NCBI GenBank assembly: GCA_033819885.1
Contig: JAQYUZ010000010.1
Coordinates: forward strand, 62,001-126,000
Direction of reading: 5' to 3'
DNA: 64,000 nt
Source: Microbotryomycetes sp. JL201
Lineage: Eukaryota; Basidiomycota; Microbotryomycetes
In this document: in pieces, positions 6,435-41,130 of the stretch
How positions within the stretch are numbered: position 1 is the first letter of the stretch
Layout: every line of letters begins with the position of its first letter
The notes under the pieces: generated by a model
Seen by the model: the letters and a program-made list of their open reading frames with translations, nothing else
The model's database searches: none
What the model was told of the DNA's origin: nothing
Program-made: the position numbers and the translations under genes

Positions 6435-9400
6435 TCATTGCGTCGTCGAGCGCGACTGCTTGAACAATCTCGGCGCATGTTCGACCATGATCTCGACTAG
6501 TTTGGCTTTGGCGCCCATATCGCTCCATTCTCGCGACGCGACACTCGAACGAAGAACGGTCGCTGCAAGCGAACGGAGTCAATACTTCGCCCTATTCGCC
6601 CTCGTTCAAGGATCGCCCGTGACCAGTCCGGGAACTCACGCCCAAACACGACACCCAGATTCGCAGGCGTCATCTTGTTGTCATTACTCGCCAAGTGGAC
6701 GCTGTCAGACGCAGAGCCAAAAGTCAGCGGTGCGCCGCGCCGTTCCCGCGTTGCATCTTCCTTTCTGGCAAACATGCTCACCGATGCAGGTGCAAGAATA
6801 GTGCACGCGCAGTCTCGTAATGAGCGTCAGGTAATTTGTGCAAGATTTGTTCGATCTTGGTTAGACGGTTGTCACCTTCGGGCATCTCTGCGAACTCGGT
6901 GCGGGCATCAGTCTGTGTCTCTGGCTGCAGACTATCTCACGACTGACCTGCACACGCAACAAAATCTTCGTGCAAGTCGTGCGTGAACAAAGGCACGGGC
7001 ATGCATCTGAAAAAGTTTTTCAAGCAGGACGTGATCGCCGCCAGGTCGTTGAACTTGTCCAAGTCTTCCAAGTCGAAGTCTTGCCCGCGCTCGAAGAATT
7101 GCGTAATGAGTTTTGTTTGGCCCATGCCGCCCGTCTTGCGGTAGATGCCCTCGTAAGCCATGCCTGTTCGAGTTGAAAGTAGCGGTCAGATAAGCTTGCC
7201 TACTGAAAAGACACGACTGATCGCGCTACGAACCGTATGCTTCAACCGCAGCGATACACTTCGAGACGACTAGGGGCACGTCACGGCCTTCGGCCTTGAC
7301 TTGGGCAACCTGTTCCCATCATGCCCGCGTCAGTCACATCGCTTGTGAATTCGCTACTGCCATCTTCTCACCAGATCATTGCCAAACATGACAGGCGCCT
7401 GAGAGATGATAGTCATCGTGTCGTCCTGGTTCAAAGCTGGCTGCCCATTAACGCTGCAAGGCCCTGTCAGGTAGCCTGCGCACTTGGCGTGCGCGTACGA
7501 GCCGCAACCTGAAAGCTCGTGTCAGTCCATTTTCGGTTCACGATCGATAAGTTGGCGACTGACTTGTGCAACGGACTTCATTCAAGCCCCAGATCTTGTC
7601 TCCGCAATAGTCACACCTGACCGGTCTCAAAATGCTGACTTGCTGAAACGAATGAGCCTTGGTCGAGTCGGACAGAGTCGACCTGGCGTTGACGACAGGA
7701 GACTTTGACAAGCTTGACACGAGCGCTTGACGCGGAGCATCGACCGTTGTTTTTGCTTTGCCCCACTTGAACTTTTTGGCGACAGAATGTTCGACGTGTT
7801 CTGGCTTGATGACCCGATGCATCTCTGCCAGGTCTACATTGGACGGCTGAGGTGACGAAATATTCCGAGTCGACAGCGGTACAGAACGAGCAGACATGGC
7901 GATGCTTGAGCTGCTGGCAGAATGTTGGTGTTGCGCGAGACGCTGTTGCGCAAGATTCGTGTTCAACGCCGACGATGAGGATCCAGCCGTTAGTCTCATG
8001 CGCGACATAGAAGCGCGCAGATTTTCGAGCTCGCGACTCGACTCTGCATTCTTGTCCGTCAACTCTGTCTGTCTCGTCGTCAAGCTCGAGATGTCATTCA
8101 CGAGCGTGTCACGATCTTGTTTCAATGTGGCAATCTCGCGAGTGAGCTCGTCGCGCTGTTCGACTAGGCTCTTGATTTCTTGCCGGTGCGCGTCTTTGAC
8201 ATTCTCGAGACGTGCCGTCAAACCCTGCACGAGTTCTGTGCTAGCGGCGGACGACCGATCGGCATCGCCTTGTCTGTATACGGCAAAGAGAATAAGCATC
8301 GTTTGGACGGCTCCATGCTCGCGAGAACTTGCCGTGCAGCTGGCGCAGGCTCCAACGCCGCCAATTGAGCCGCTTGAGCCGTCGACAATTCGACCTCGGC
8401 ACGCAAGAGTGACAAGTGCTTCTCCATGCCCATGACGGAGTTTCTCAAGTCTTTCGACTGTCTTTTAAGTGCCTCGGCCTGTTTCTGCTCTTTGTCGATC
8501 GCGGCCAATCGCTGGGCCTGTTCGACAAACTTGGATCGCAACTGATCCATGCGCGCCTCGGTGTCTCGTCTGGCTGCCAACTCTTTGTCGTACTCTTCTC
8601 TCGCCATGCTGAATCCCTCAAAAGCAGAACGCGACACACGCTGTCCAGGAAAGATTTAAGTGAGCAGCCAAGAAGGGGATGAACAAAGCGCGCACTGACC
8701 CTGAAAGCATTATACTTTTCCTGCAAGTCCTTCATCTCCTTCTTGGTCACCTCCAATTCTCCAAGCAACATTTCGACCAACTCGACGTCCAAGCCGCCTC
8801 CGACAGTCTTGCCTCCGTCTGTCGAAGCGTCTCCACTTGCTTTTGACAATCTTATGGACTCTCTCACTCGTCGAGCAACATCCGTAGGTCTCGCGACTCT
8901 TTTTTGTCGCGACTCGCCAGCTTCATCCTCGTCGTCCGAATACGCTCGTGAACTGCCCAAGTCTGGACTGAGATGTTCGACTTGTTCGGCATCACCTCGG
9001 ACACCGTTTCCAAACATGCCAGAACGCCGTCTCGAGGCGTTATTGGACGTGCCCGTGCCAATTGGCGGTGAACCTGGCAAAGAACCAACGTGATCGAGAA
9101 ACAGTAGAGTGTCGGGTTCGTAGAACGACATTGACCCATGGAGGTCCGTGGCGGCTATCGTTGGAGGAGATGCTGCTGCTGCTGCAGTTGCGATGATAGA
9201 GGCTTGTGTCGGCGGCGGATCATGAGGTGGTGGGGCCGGAGCCGGTGACTCTCTGCCGGTATGATCTTCGCCAAGTCTGCCAGCGTCGAAAGAGCCTTGC
9301 AGACTCATCGCACCGTAAAACCCCGATCGACGATTTGCCGCCTTGTCACTTTGGCCTGGCGCAGAAAGCGACCCTTGGCGACTTCCAAGACCGCCGAAAG

Positions 9401-10989
9401 AAACCGTCGTCGCGTCATCCAATTGACTCGTTTTCGTCGAGTCTGATGTTCCAGGTCGAGGTGGTAGTCTCGCCGATGGCGGCGGTGACGGATCGAGCCT
9501 CAAAGGTTCCGCCGATGGCGGTCGTGGCGGCGGCAACACTGCCTCGCCCGATGGACGTCTGAGGTGACCATCCGCCGTTCTACTGAAGCTCGGACTTGCA
9601 TTTCTTGCTCGGCTGTCATGCGAAAACGCAGGGTGTACCATCGGCGTTCTTGTATCGTCTCCTCGCCGAGGCAGGGGCGACGGCGTGCTACGTCCGAGAT
9701 CGGTTAATGAATTTGAAGACGAAGATGGTCTCACGCTGACAGATGGAATCTTGGGATGCCGAGCGTACGATGAAGAAGATGGTTTGGATGCCGAAGCGAC
9801 CGAAGACGAAGCGAGGTCCGCCAAGCTCATGGTTGACGTTGATGCCGCAGGTCCGCTCCCGTAGGGCGACGGCGGCAATGGCCGCGTGCCACTTGACGAC
9901 GATTCCAACGTTGGAATGTCAAAGTAACCGTTTGTTGACGCAGCGTCTGTTCGGTGCGGTCTGTCCTTGTCTGCAGTTGCCGATCTTGACTTTGTGGCGC
10001 TGGCGCTCGTCGAGCCGCTCGGCCGAACCGAGCCCTCCTTGCGAGATGCCCTGTTGCGCTTTGCTTCTGCGTGCTTTCTTGTGCGTGCTACTCGCTCGTT
10101 GTGACAGCTCATGCACCAGATTCCCGCCGTAGTCTTTGCAAAGATGAGCTCTTCAATCTTGCTGTGGCACGAGCGGCATCTGAAGCAATCTGCGTGGTAC
10201 GACTCGTCGCCTGAAGAAGAAGGGAGAACATAGCATAGAGCTCAGCCATAGAGAGCAAGCGATAATCAACAGGGTTCGTGGAGACTGACCGGTGACGATG
10301 GCCTCGTTGTGAATCGGTTTCTCGCAAACGCTGCAAATGTACGAGCAGTTTTCGCATACGGGACTGCCATCTGACAGCAATAGTAGGTTGGTGTCGTGCT
10401 CGACGAGTGTGTTGCATTTTGCGCATCGACTGCGACATGCGAAGCCTGTCAGTGACCGCTCGGTGCGTGACAGCCATGGTGAATCGGCTTACAAGCTGTC
10501 GCAATGGCAATGGCGAGTTTGAATGGGAGTCAGCAGGTGAACCAAGTTGTCAGCAACCAGTCTGTGCGCACCAGTCGACACTGCAATGCGCGTAGAGTGA
10601 GCAATTGATCGGACCTCGGCAGCTCTTGGACTGACTGGAACAAGTATTTGCCAAACGATACGACAGTGTTGTCGAGGGTTTCCTCAAGTCCTTGCTTGCA
10701 TGCTGGCGATGAATGTGTGAGTGTGTCAGTCGCTGGTGGGCGCGCCATGGTTGCTCAAGTCGAGCGCAGCGCGCGCTCGCGGGGAGGCGCGTCTGCTGAC
10801 GACCAAGCACAGCACAGGCGCAGTCGATCAGCTGAAGCACCACGTACCATTGCATACAACAGGTTCCGAGCCGTTAGTCGGCTGCAGGTGCTCTTGATGT
10901 CGCGTCGCAGCTCGCGAATGACCGTCCGTGGAGCTCTCCACGCCGTCGGCGCCGACCTTGGGTGCGTCAGGTACCTGTGGCGGGTCCAT
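6435..10989 (-). CDS. LIM-LIM-C1-RhoGAP Rho GTPase-activating protein (Rga type)
   Basis: A 1204-residue Rho-family GTPase-activating protein of the fungal Rga architecture, expected to act on Cdc42/Rho at polarity sites. Fourteen exons: 10848-10989, 10636-10702, 10572-10580 (9 nt), 10493-10495 (3 nt), 10290-10429, 8700-10210, 8333-8640, 7564-8273, 7372-7508, 7234-7309, 6948-7163, 6782-6887, 6640-6701 and 6435-6562. LIM1 is at residues 46-103 with ligands C46, C49, H70, C73, C76 and C79, and LIM2 is at about 106-160. A Ser/Pro-rich region and coiled coil follow. A C1 zinc finger lies near 935-985 (H-x12-C-x2-C pattern), and RhoGAP runs from about 1015 to 1190 with arginine finger R1043 in IYRKTGG and the NKMTPANLGVVFGPT block. 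The 8274-8332 intron is GC-AG. The exon sum is 3615 nt. Confidence 0.92.
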
Positions 10990-35605: not shown

Positions 35606-38600
35606 ATGGTGCGCGCCGGACCGACAACTGCGGGACGGCGCTCGGCAGCGTGGTGGTCACTTGTCGGCTGGCTGTGGCTGTACGTGCTTTGGCCTTCATC
35701 CGTCAATGCATCGAGCGCGGCCGTGCCCGTGTCAACTGTGCCCGCCTCGGTCGCGTATGAGCCGCACGGGACAGCCGCAGAGGCTGCACCGCCAGCGCCA
35801 TATCGGGCTCAGGTACACCGTCCGAAGAAGCCGTCCGAGTCTCGTCAAGTGCCAGACGCGGTCAAGCACTTCCGCTTCAACGCGCCATTGTCGCTCGCTG
35901 CTGCCGACGACACTGCCGAGCACGAGCCCCGGGTCGCCGACTTGTCGCTCGCACCCGTCGTCATTGCAGTCACTCTCGATGGACACGTACATGCCTTGAA
36001 ACGCGACTCGGGACAGTGGATGTGGACGCTACATGACGATGGCGGCGCAGCGCTGAGCGGGGTGACCCAGCGTGAACGCTTAGAACGACTCAAGGCGGGC
36101 GAAGCACTGGGCGGGCATCTCGTCAAAGGCGCAAGCAGGAAAGCTGCGGTTGCCGCAAGACGGCGGGCTGCCAAAGCCAGCAACGGCACGGCCGAGTATG
36201 GCATCGCCGTGCCAGACTCTGCCGACGATGTCGACGACGATCTGCTTGACGAGGAGTTGTACATCGTCGAGCCAGCCGGCGGAGGTGACATTTACTTGTA
36301 CGCCCGCGACGACATGGGCGAGTTCAGCCTCCAAAAACTGCCACTTTCGATGCAAGAGCTCGTCGGACAATCGCCGTTCTCGTTTCCGTCGCTATCGTCC
36401 CGCATCTTTGTCGGCAAGAAGGACGCCAAATTCGTCGGAGTCGATATGCGCAACGGACGGCTCGTAGGCGTCTTTGGAGCAGACGCCGGTTGGTGCGAAT
36501 GGGACGTGCAGCGCGAGGCCAGCATCAAGTCAGAGGCTGACTACGAGGACGACATTTCGAGGAGACCTGAAGACTTGTTGTACATTGCAAAGACGGGCGA
36601 GTTGTTTGAAACGTTGCTACATGGGCGCGATGGCTGACGATCAGCGAACGGCAGACTATCACTTGACGGTGTTTGCTAAAAACTCCGCAGCGCCACTGCA
36701 AACCCTTACTTACACGACCTATTCTTCCTCATCACTTGGCTCGAACTTGCAGTCAAAGTGGACGAGAACACCCGACAATCGATACTTCCAGCCGATGCAT
36801 GATGGTGCGCTACTGTGCTTCACGGCTGGCGTCCCCGGCGTGAGCTGGTCGGTCGATTTCGAGACGCCGGTCGTGTCAATATTCGATGTGGCAATTAATC
36901 CTGAAGACGGCAAGGGCGAGCAAGCGCAGCCGCTGTTGTTTGAGCATCCTCACCCCTTGTTAGTCGAAGAGGATCTACCATTCGATTTCCGTCGACTGCA
37001 ACAGCTTCCAGAGACGACGTATGTAGGGCGCATCGGCAATGATATATTTGCGCTCAACCGCGACAATTTCCCGCTCGTCGCCTTTGCACCCTCTTTCGGC
37101 GAGGCCTCCATCGGCGGGCGATCCAAGGACGACGACGAAGACAATTGGGTCGACAGCGCCCCAAGCGACAGCGACAAGGATGGGCAGCTGGTGCCAAGTA
37201 TTGGCGTTAAATGTCGAGGCATCGATTGTCTGCTGGGGCGCCATCGAACTCGGCAGACCATCCCAGACCACGCCATTGAACCGGCTCCTTCTAGGCCAGC
37301 TATTGACGGACCGACTTCACAAGAGCCTTTGGTCGAATCGACAGCAGCTCCGAACCCGTCAACTCCGCACTTTCCAGGTCGGTCATCCGTCCTAGCTCGG
37401 CTGTCTCGACCCGTGAAACAGATCTCAGATGGCGACGTCAGTCCCACATTGTTTCTGCTCTTTCTGGCGATCATTGGCTACTATTATGTCAAAAGACTGT
37501 CGACAAGAGCCGAAGTTCCTACGAAACCTGCTCAACCGTTCGAGCTGAGCCACTCAGCTCAGGCTGTTGTGTCCGATCCGGCGCCCAAGTCGGCGTCCAA
37601 TTCCAAGCAAGCAGATATTGCAAATCTCATTGACACAGAACGTCCGCCAAGTCGAGCTGTCACTCCTCCTTCAGCTGAGGTTGTCTCCGCAATGGGGTTG
37701 TCCACAGCAAGACCGCGATCAGACTCCTTGACAACAAGCGCCGATCCGTCGCCAGTCATACCTCCTTCGAAAGACTTGCCACCGCTTCCGCAAGCGAACG
37801 GCGATGATGTGGAATTCGACAGCGACGCAGAAGGTGTAGCGGAGAAGGGCGCCGAAGGCACGTATCGAAAGAAGGGCAGGCGTAGACGAGGCAAGAAGGG
37901 GAAACACAAGAACGTGCTGGCCACAGCCGCATCCCTTGCGGCAGGCGAGCCAGTGGCAAATTTGCTGTCTAGTCCCACAATCGTCGCGCCCAGCCCGAAC
38001 GTCCGCCAAGACGAGGGGATCATGCCGATGTCTTCATCAGCAGACGACGGCTTGCGTGGACTGCAGCTTACAGCGGCCGACCTCCAGGAGGAGCGGGAGC
38101 CGGAAAAGTTCGATCCCGTGCCAGTGACTGGCCCTCTCGTTGTCGGTGGACTGTCGGTTTCCGATACCATCCTCGGTGAGCCCCTAATATGTAACCAGAT
38201 CTGGTATCTGACCGTTTATTTCAGGCTACGGCTCTCATGGCACAGTTGTGTTACGCGGCGAATTCCAGGGAAGAGCGGTCGCCGTCAAGCGTTTGCTGAA
38301 AGACTTCGTGACAATCGCGACGCACGAAGTGAGCCTGCTGCAAGAGTCAGATGACCATCCGCACGTCATTCGATACTTTTGCAAAGAGCAGCGCGAGACG
38401 TTCTTGTACATCGCGCTCGAGCTGTGCCCGGCTTCGCTCTTTGACCTTGTCGACCAGCCTTCATCTTTCCGCGACCTGCTGCGTGACTTTGAGCCGAAGC
38501 GGGCTTTAAAGCAGATAACGTCGGGAATCCGACACTTGCATAATCTCAAGATCGTTCATCGAGACATCAAGCCTCAGAACATTCTCGTGTCGACTTCAAC

Positions 38601-39626
38601 GAGAGGCAAAGGCGTTCGTATGCTCATCTCCGACTTTGGACTGTGCAAAAAACTTGACGTCGACGAGTCGTCTTTTCAACAAACTGTAAATCATGCGGCA
38701 GGCTCATTCGGCTACCGCGCACCAGAAGTTTTGCGAGGTCAGGTCGACCCGAACGACGCCATCAACTTGAACGGCTCGACTAGCCAGCTGTCGAACACGA
38801 CAAATAGCACAGGATCAGGCAATGCAGCTGCCGACCCCAGTCTGCGTCTTACGAGATCGATCGACATCTTCTCACTCGGTTGTATCTTTTACTACGTGTT
38901 GACGGGAGGAGAACATCCATTCGGGGGCCGGTACGAGCGCGAGATGAATATATTACAAGGCAAATTCTCGCTCGAGTCACTTGACGGCCTTGGCGAGGAA
39001 GCTATCGAGGTGCAACATCTGATCTCGCGCATGGTCGCGAACGATCCGCGAGAGAGGTACACGAGCGCGACCAAGAGCTGAGAAGACAACGAGCTGACCC
39101 ACACGATCATCATAGGCCTACTGCAGAGGCTGTCCTGCTTCACCCATTCTTCTGGAACGCGCAGAAGCGGCTCCTTTTCATTTGTGACGCCAGCGACCGA
39201 TTCGAAATCATGGAACGGGACCCACCCACGCCAACGTTGCTCACGCTGGAATCACAGAGTCAGAACATAGTCGGCGACGACTGGCAAAAGGCTCTTGATC
39301 GGACCCTGCTCGACAATTTGGGCAAATATCGCAAGTATGACGGCAAATCAGTACGAGACTTGCTTCGCGTCTTGCGCAACAAGGTCAGTTCCCGGTGACA
39401 AGAGGTGAATGAGGGCTGACGGTGTGGTCCGCAGAAACACCACTACCAAGATCTTCCTGAGCCGGTTCGAAGAAATCTCGGCGACTTGCCTGGCGGTTTC
39501 CTATCATACTTTACGACCCGGTTCCCGAACTTGCTCTTGCACGTGTATGCGACGGTAGAGACGCATTTGCGTGACGAGCCCATGTTTGCTTCCACATTTA
39601 AAATCTCGGAGGACGACCACGTGTGA
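35606..39626 (+). CDS. IRE1: Unfolded-protein-response sensor kinase/endoribonuclease IRE1
   Basis: A 1267-residue ER transmembrane sensor that splices HAC1/XBP1-type mRNA when unfolded proteins accumulate. Exons are 35606-36596, 36655-38175, 38225-39056, 39116-39383 and 39435-39626 (3804 nt). An N-terminal signal anchor (WWSLVGWLWLYVLWP) leads a lumenal domain with VIAVTLDGHVHALKRDSGQ, LYIAKTDYHLTVF and DNRYFQPMHDGALL. A single helix near residue 594 (FLLFLAIIGYYYV) crosses the membrane. The kinase has YGSHGTVVLRGEF, AVKRL, HRDIKPQNIL near 948, SDFGLCKKL and GSFGYRAPEV, followed by the KEN RNase domain with DGKSVRDLLRVLRNKKHHY and a short end. The first intron (36597-36654) begins GC, and only that choice rebuilds the IAKTDYHL motif. 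Confidence 0.94.
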
Positions 39627-39916
39627 GGGATCGCTTTCAAATCTTTGTATCGCATTCATTATTATTATTCGCTGTCGCATACCCTTGTCCTGCTTTCATT
39701 GTAGCTTATACGCAATTTCGTCTGATTTTGTGAATCGAGAATCGATCTCAGTTTGCTTGTGGAGGCCCTCCACTCAGTGAGGTGCAAATCTCCCGCACCA
39801 TTGCATTCCATCTTCGCTTCACGTACGTTCAGTCTCCATTGTCTTTCGACGCTCGTGCTTGGACCACATTCGGCCCCACATCCTCTTTGTCCTCTTACTT
39901 CTCGATCACGCAAACA

Positions 39917-41130
39917 ATGAAGGTCCTGGTCCTCGGCGCGACAGGCTTTATCGGCTTTCCCATCTCTACCGAATTTGTTCGCCAAGGTCACACTATCATT
40001 GGAGTCACTCGGTCGGCGGAAAAGGCAAAGATGCTCGAAGCCAATGAAAGTGAGCTCGAAGAAACACAGAGTAACTCCATCAATGCGCTGACGAGTGCTT
40101 CTCGGAACAAAGTCACGCCCGTCGTGGCAGATCCTGCCGATCCAAGCCAATGGCGAAGCGTAATCAAATACGTCGACTGCGTCATTGACGCCGTTGGAGG
40201 TTCAGCGCTCGCAGAAACTAGCGAAACGATCAGAAAGACTGTTGCACATGAAGCTGAGCAGAGCCGGCCGGAAGGACCGGCATTGTCATTTATATGTAAG
40301 CCGAAATTTACTTCAACGAAAGTCTTGAACTGACTCGGGCGCGTTCGATGCACGATAGACTGCTCTGGAACATGGCTCCACGGAGACGTGTCTGATCGTG
40401 AGTGGCCAGATTTGGAAGAGAACTTTGTCGAGCTGGTAAAGGTGACATGCGCCTTTGCAGCACCCTACGGGTCACTTTCAGACTTGTCTCCAATCGATAA
40501 GCCCAATCCAATCACAGAGTTCCGCAAAGCTCACGAACAAAAAGTGCTTGCGACCAAATCCGTTTCATTTGCTCCAAATGTCATTCGACCGTCGCTCCTC
40601 TATGGACGTTCTGGGTCGATCACTGCCAGTTGGTTCGAGACGGCTAAGCAAGGTCACGTACAAATAAAAGGCAGCTCAGAAGCGAGAATTGCTACATGCC
40701 ATGCCGATGATGCAGCCTCGATGTTTGTTCTGGTGGCCGAAAAGGTCAGTCGCCTCGCTCGAGCCAAGTTCGCACAAGCGACTTGACTGACCTCTCGAGA
40801 GCAGGCCCTCGTCGTTCAAGGCATCATCTTTGATGCGTCGAATCCTTACCCCGAGAGTCTAAAAGTCATTCTCGAGCGCCTCGCAAAGGTGGCCAATGCT
40901 CAGGGCCCGACATTTATTGACGCCACGAATGGCAAGTTTTTGAGGCTGACAACACGTACAGCTCGAATGCTGAATGTTTCCGCTTTGCAGATTTTGAGAG
41001 GGCGATTGCATCAAGCGACTTGCTGCGCCCAACGTTGGCGAAGAGCCTGCTCGGATGGCAGGCGAAGCGAGCACCGATGGCCCAAGACATCTCAGTGTAC
41101 TACAAGGCTTGGCTCGCCAGCTCCGTCTAG
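39917..41130 (+). CDS. NAD(P)-binding epimerase/NmrA-like protein
   Basis: A 322-residue Rossmann-fold protein of the extended SDR/NAD-dependent epimerase group. Exons are 39917-40049, 40113-40295, 40359-40744, 40805-40931 and 40991-41130 (969 nt). The nucleotide-binding loop is VLVLGATGFIG at the N-terminus, followed by VTRS; the chain continues DCVIDAVGG, CSGTWLHGD, RPSLLYGRSGS, CHADDAASMFVLVAEK and ends LLGWQAKRAPM...YYKAWLASS. There is no classical YxxxK at the usual place, so catalysis is doubtful and it may be a redox sensor or an atypical enzyme. The last intron (40932-40990) is GC-AG. Confidence 0.85.

Follow-up and report, generated by a model that had tools for sequence, protein, structure and literature searches.

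We identified two consecutive candidate microexons, of 9 and 3 nt, in the first LIM domain (LIM1) of a RhoGAP gene of Microbotryomycetes sp. JL201. From its sequence, LIM1 is very probably cut by three consecutive short phase-2 introns (A to C), which would be recognised as units (intron definition) and removed one after another, the microexons being most likely included constitutively. A first-pass annotation of the 64,000 nt of DNA that we analysed (contig JAQYUZ010000010.1, positions 62,001 to 126,000; hereafter the window) had described the pair as rebuilding the zinc knuckle of LIM1. This stands in so far as the microexons would supply Cys73, which closes the ligand set of the first zinc site, but the term is loose, as they would also supply Phe74, one of the two residues of the link to the second zinc site.

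The gene lies on the minus strand, running from the ATG at 10989 down to the stop codon at 6437-6435 (Table 1). Coordinates, exon and intron lengths and GT..AG dinucleotides of the first-pass annotation proved exact on re-reading, and its numbering of the LIM1 ligands (C46, C49, H70, C73, C76, C79, C99 and C102) is right with exon 1 running from the ATG at 10989 to 10848. The predicted spliced order within 10702-10290 is ..TTGTTCCA-TGTCGACTG-CTT-TCGATGCGC.., and the joined exons translate as SFGKYLF-HVDCFRCAKCN. The codons of His70 (CA/T), Cys73 (TG/C) and Phe74 (TT/T) are each interrupted by an intron, A, B and C respectively. Given that CTT spans the last base of the Cys73 codon and two bases of Phe74, the 3-nt exon encodes no whole codon. 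Both small exons fall within the definition of a microexon, that is, an internal exon no longer than some 30 nt that has an acceptor and a donor of its own. In intron B the branch-like heptamer TGCTGAC is present twice, with the A falling on nucleotides 22 and 42 of the 76, the first copy being near the donor. We also considered introns A to C as copies of each other and rejected this, since in sets of 500 shuffles 24%, 80% and 29% scored as high as the real pairs; as copies of other DNA in the window they were likewise rejected (best match 12 nt, E 0.14).

Table 1. Predicted features of the LIM-LIM-C1-RhoGAP gene (positions in the window; sequences read on the sense strand)
Feature	Position	Strand	Remarks
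Exon 1	10848..10989	-	ATG to C46-N47 and one base of A48
Exon 1 donor	10847	-	GTACGT; donor score 5.21
Exon 2	10636..10702	-	part of A48, C49 to H70; ends with CA of the His codon
Intron A	10581..10635	-	55 nt, phase 2; GTCAGT .. TGCTCAC .. GCAG
Microexon 1	10572..10580	-	9 nt, TGTCGACTG; end of H70, V71, D72, start of C73
Intron B	10496..10571	-	76 nt, phase 2; GTGCGC .. TGCTGAC .. ACAG
Microexon 2	10493..10495	-	3 nt, CTT; end of C73, start of F74
Intron C	10430..10492	-	63 nt, phase 2; GTAAGC .. CACTGAC .. GCAG
Exon after intron C	10290..10429	-	opens TCGATGC; from F74: R75, C76, C79, C99, C102, start of LIM2
Next exon	8700..10210	-	remainder of LIM2 (HADCFRCRSC unbroken) and linker
C1 and RhoGAP region	6435..7720	-	Pfam matches; start approximate; probable stop codon 6437-6435

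LIM domains follow the pattern C-x2-C-x(16-23)-H-x2-C-x2-C-x2-C-x(16-21)-C-x2-C/H/D, and LIM1 fits it with all eight ligands. With both microexons the Pfam LIM family (PF00412) scores 40.1 bits, or 43.1 bits when the exon-1 cysteine is included, above the cut-off of 22.9; the score falls to 25.1 bits without the 9-nt exon and to 20.6 bits without both. Skipping the 3-nt exon costs one residue between zinc ligands, as the first-pass annotation had held, and the Pfam search then reports no family at all, the HMMER filters probably hiding a weak match. A solved Lhx4-ISL2 LIM construct aligns without gaps through FHVDCFRCAKCN (E only 0.0011 for the LIM1 stretch alone), and LIM2 of the same gene carries the parallel HADCFRCRSC within one exon. 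Further along the product, Pfam finds C1_1 (34.2 bits) and RhoGAP (142.3 bits). The predicted product, about 1,204 residues long in the translated reading, belongs with the LIM-LIM-C1-RhoGAP proteins of the Lrg1/Rga1 kind known from fungi. Lrg1 of Neurospora has three LIM domains (PMC3914944, in excerpt), whereas the JL201 protein differs from Lrg1 proper in having two LIM stretches, both in its N-terminal 223 residues; no third LIM was found in the C1-RhoGAP part or in exons 10208-8700, 8640-8254 and 8191-7565. According to the same excerpt, Lrg1 of the rice blast fungus depends on LIM2 and the RhoGAP domain for its function (PMC3914944).

Relatives were sought with two protein queries. The 133-residue LIM1-LIM2 query gave 17 pattern matches in prokaryote genomes, none of them a relative, and no match in viral contigs. 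With the 132-residue RhoGAP query there were 24 pattern matches in prokaryote genomes, again without a relative, and three in viral contigs, one of which (L001) passed as a 15-residue match (E 3e-5 in one search and 6e-4 in another). L001 was rejected as a relative (ORFs phage-like by eye, and E 7 or worse with the LIM query), and we take its match to the RhoGAP query as chance.

The junction set is unique among GT-AG paths. We enumerated the open in-frame paths that run between Cys49 and Cys76, both fixed, and asked which of them keep the LIM ligand spacing H-x2-C-x2-C-x2-C. With GT-AG borders and one to three introns of at least 40 nt each, a single path out of 158 keeps it, and this is the two-microexon path, as first proposed; a gene finder retrained without the gene agrees (see below). 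The same path is the only one to fit when up to three GT-AG introns may be as short as 20 nt (1 of 711) and when up to four of at least 40 nt are allowed (1 of 160). The first-pass annotation had named ligand-keeping junctions without the microexons as what would refute its proposal; none of the 2,513 paths with up to two introns (GT/GC-AG and AT-AC/AG, at least 20 nt) keeps the LIM ligands. Adding GC donors (three introns, at least 40 nt) lets 3 of 1,211 paths fit the bare spacing. We rejected the two GC-donor alternatives among them, which insert unrelated residues and reach splice scores of 3.8 and 4.2 versus 33.9 for the two-microexon path. When introns may also be as short as 30 nt, GC donors still being allowed, seven of 2,822 paths fit the bare spacing, and the six others were rejected at splice scores of 4.4 or less; all these scores come from matrices trained with the RhoGAP gene included. 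Of the GT-AG solutions enumerated, only the two-microexon model preserves the ligands of the Cys49-Cys76 stretch.

The splice signals were weighed with a custom gene finder that combines codon usage, donor, branch and acceptor matrices and intron length, sets no minimum exon length and has no knowledge of LIM domains. It was trained on the 64,000-nt window from seven long ORFs as seeds, one of them within the RhoGAP gene, and returned 20 genes with 130 introns, including exons of exactly 9 and 3 nt at this site. Retrained without the RhoGAP gene (114 introns left; the retraining started from the first-run models minus the gene's own), it called the same two microexons in all three rounds. Varying the gene penalty over three values and the intron prior between 1/50 and 1/1500 left the call unchanged; with a prior of 1/5000 or 1/20000 the finder places no intron whatever at 10400-10705. 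Local scores from the leave-gene-out matrices are 8.17 nats with both exons, 4.65 nats when the 9-nt exon is skipped, -0.36 nats when the 3-nt exon is skipped and -0.33 nats when both are. The individual signals are typical of the window. The donors rank only average among the training donors, at percentiles 47, 31 and 43 for introns A, B and C, and outscore 95.5 to 97.3% of all GT in the window. Acceptor plus branch of the three introns stand at the 48th, 91st and 88th percentile of the training introns and, with both strands of the window counted, outscore between 97.2 and 99.7% of all AG (intron B above 99.7%, intron C above 99.6%).

The finder also makes errors. For exon 1 it chose a donor at 10922 (score 3.18), with which Cys46 would be lost, over the better-scoring one at 10847 (5.21), and it fused the RhoGAP gene with an ATG16-like gene directly downstream (6305-4924, minus strand; three exons with Pfam ATG16 scores of 32.3, 21.9 and 42.8 bits, cut-off 33.7), although the RhoGAP frame ends before it, with a separate stop at 6437-6435. 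A decoy run on the reversed window returned no genes, and for that reason says little on false microexons. Among the other predictions, an acetyl-CoA synthetase gene (54897-52396, minus strand) has 12 residues, around 54692, that are missing from its best solved relative, 5ifi, a Cryptococcus structure that would suggest a basidiomycete source; the extra residues are probably a wrong acceptor choice of the finder. The prediction at 35606-41130 (plus strand) resembles, as judged by eye, an Ire1-type kinase-nuclease joined to a short NAD-binding-type protein, and is probably two genes fused by the finder. At 33537-29780 (minus strand), two allantoicase-like halves are followed by a ureidoglycolate-lyase-like stretch (by eye), possibly several genes joined together. 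Small exons are also predicted in a SERF-like gene (2098-1474, minus strand), which begins with a 7-nt coding start exon followed by internal exons of 20 and 12 nt with a weak donor (1.38) between them; Pfam SERF-like_N reaches 20.0 bits (cut-off 22.3), and without the 12-nt exon nothing is reported.

Could the agreement between splice sites and LIM spacing be fortuitous? LIM1 might be degenerate, or spliced without microexons, and indeed a direct intron of 206 nt from 10635 to 10430 leaves the frame open. Keeping 6 nt fixed at either end, we made 10,000 dinucleotide-preserving shuffles of 10635-10430, and counted as LIM-restoring any path with one 12-nt exon or two exons summing to 12 nt. Such a path was present in 108 of the 10,000 shuffles, but in none at the observed splice score, nor did any shuffle hold an in-frame microexon path with the real margin over direct splicing; shuffling also erases branch sites, so that the null stands for unstructured sequence and not for real introns. 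Moreover, the leave-gene-out splice signals favour inclusion, and ligands or their spacing are lost in the skipped forms. We therefore consider a chance match highly improbable.

Regulation might be suspected from the exon lengths, which are both divisible by three, and from the phase-2 position of all three introns, so that the frame is kept in every skipped form. One or both microexons could be alternatively skipped, breaking the zinc sites of LIM1: the three skipped forms are all frame-neutral, each loses a ligand or the ligand spacing, and the Pfam LIM score drops or disappears. A fungal analogue is the Trichoderma Xlr2 zinc-cluster microexon, whose inclusion depends on glucose (PMC11121469, in excerpt). 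If LIM1 were switched in this way, localisation or partner binding of the RhoGAP protein would change. On the other hand, inclusion scores better than skipping at the splice sites, by 3.5 to 8.5 nats, and most plant coding microexons show inclusion above 0.5 (PMC8831610, in excerpt). Regulated skipping thus seems unlikely to us, and there is accordingly only a slim chance that omission of the 3-nt exon, by deleting one residue between the zinc sites, serves to disable one protein-binding finger and leave the rest of the protein untouched. Constitutive inclusion is the reading we prefer, because Cys73 and Phe74 would come from the microexons.

Another question regards how a 3-nt exon might be recognised. 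Introns A to C are short (55-76 nt, against a window median of 65 nt) and a donor, a branch-like site and an acceptor are present in every one of them, which argues for intron definition. The first-pass annotation held that recognition must be of this kind; from the intron lengths it can fairly be inferred. Stepwise removal is suggested by the geometry of the 3-nt exon, whose acceptor and donor are so close that simultaneous binding of both is hardly conceivable. For plant microexons, too, successive removal of the flanking introns has been deduced (PMC8831610, in excerpt). We infer the route of splicing in the RNA, its order and the constitutive use of both exons. Alternatively, a single long intron might be spliced recursively, with the 3-nt exon as ratchet point, since CAG/CTT/GTAAGC (slashes at the exon borders) resembles an acceptor and then a donor at once, and after removal of intron B the donor stands at the same place. 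However, the zero-nucleotide sites described so far in the excerpt of PMC13149111 are AG directly followed by GU, whereas here 3 nt lie between AG and GT and are needed in the protein; recursive sites are also described mainly in very long introns (PMC13149111, in excerpt), and the span here (10571-10430) is 142 nt. Recursive splicing is, in our estimate, extremely improbable, and successive removal of three defined introns is the likely mechanism.

How unusual such exons are is a separate matter. A geometric model built on the 110 predicted internal exons (mean 233 nt), a set not free of finder errors, the fused RhoGAP and ATG16-like genes among them, expects 1.4 exons of up to 3 nt and 4.2 of up to 9 nt; one and two were seen, so that the window holds no excess of microexons. 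Introns placed at random would be expected to leave no fewer exons of this size in the window. The rarity implied by the first-pass annotation was overstated, as microexons down to 1 nt have been published, in fungi as well (PMC12940212 and PMC8831610, in excerpt). Indeed, plants, animals or fungi have already yielded published exons of 1-12 nt, some of them adjacent, and the kind is not new. Among the matches listed from a partial literature, judged by title and opening of the abstract, none is an account of the microexons of this RhoGAP gene; the excerpt of PMC3990503 mentions microexons only in its mapping settings. If RNA confirms the junctions, the completion of a zinc site by adjacent 9- and 3-nt exons would illustrate the kind clearly, and exon length would appear almost without a lower limit where short introns act as units. 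Standard annotation would probably drop the conserved LIM domain at the LIM1 site. The locus of the 3-nt exon also lends itself to a test of the sequence in which flanking introns are removed.

Published microexons, as described in the excerpts cited here, offer several points of comparison. Exons of 3 nt are found in Drosophila homothorax, where the microexon is alternatively spliced (PMC7392893), and in mouse Ncam and Drosophila TnT, the latter alternatively spliced (PMC8042270); they share their length with the JL201 exon, and all are animal genes. In plants, 1-nt exons occur in APC11 and VPS55, and rice Os08t0562700 has adjacent microexons of 5 and 12 nt (PMC8831610). The rice gene resembles ours in having two microexons in a row and differs in being a plant gene; the plant 5-nt and 1-nt exons had been absent from annotation, and the plant microexons were validated by RT-PCR sequencing (PMC8831610). 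Among basidiomycetes, P450 genes of Phanerochaete chrysosporium likewise combine small introns with microexons, the shortest exon being 6 bp, and the excerpt of that paper describes no 3-nt exon (PMC1184071). The 1-nt exon of Fusarium CYP621A (PMC12940212) is close in logic: as in our gene, an ultra-small fungal exon with AG/GT borders and short introns lies in a conserved motif that is otherwise impossible to assemble. The CYP621A exon is single, makes no zinc site and is backed by 20 orthologues and RNA reads, whereas the JL201 pair is predicted from DNA. Finally, Xlr2 of Trichoderma virens has one microexon described, with glucose-dependent inclusion and in a Zn(II)2Cys6 domain rather than a LIM domain (PMC11121469); like the pair in LIM1, it is a fungal microexon that a zinc-binding domain requires.
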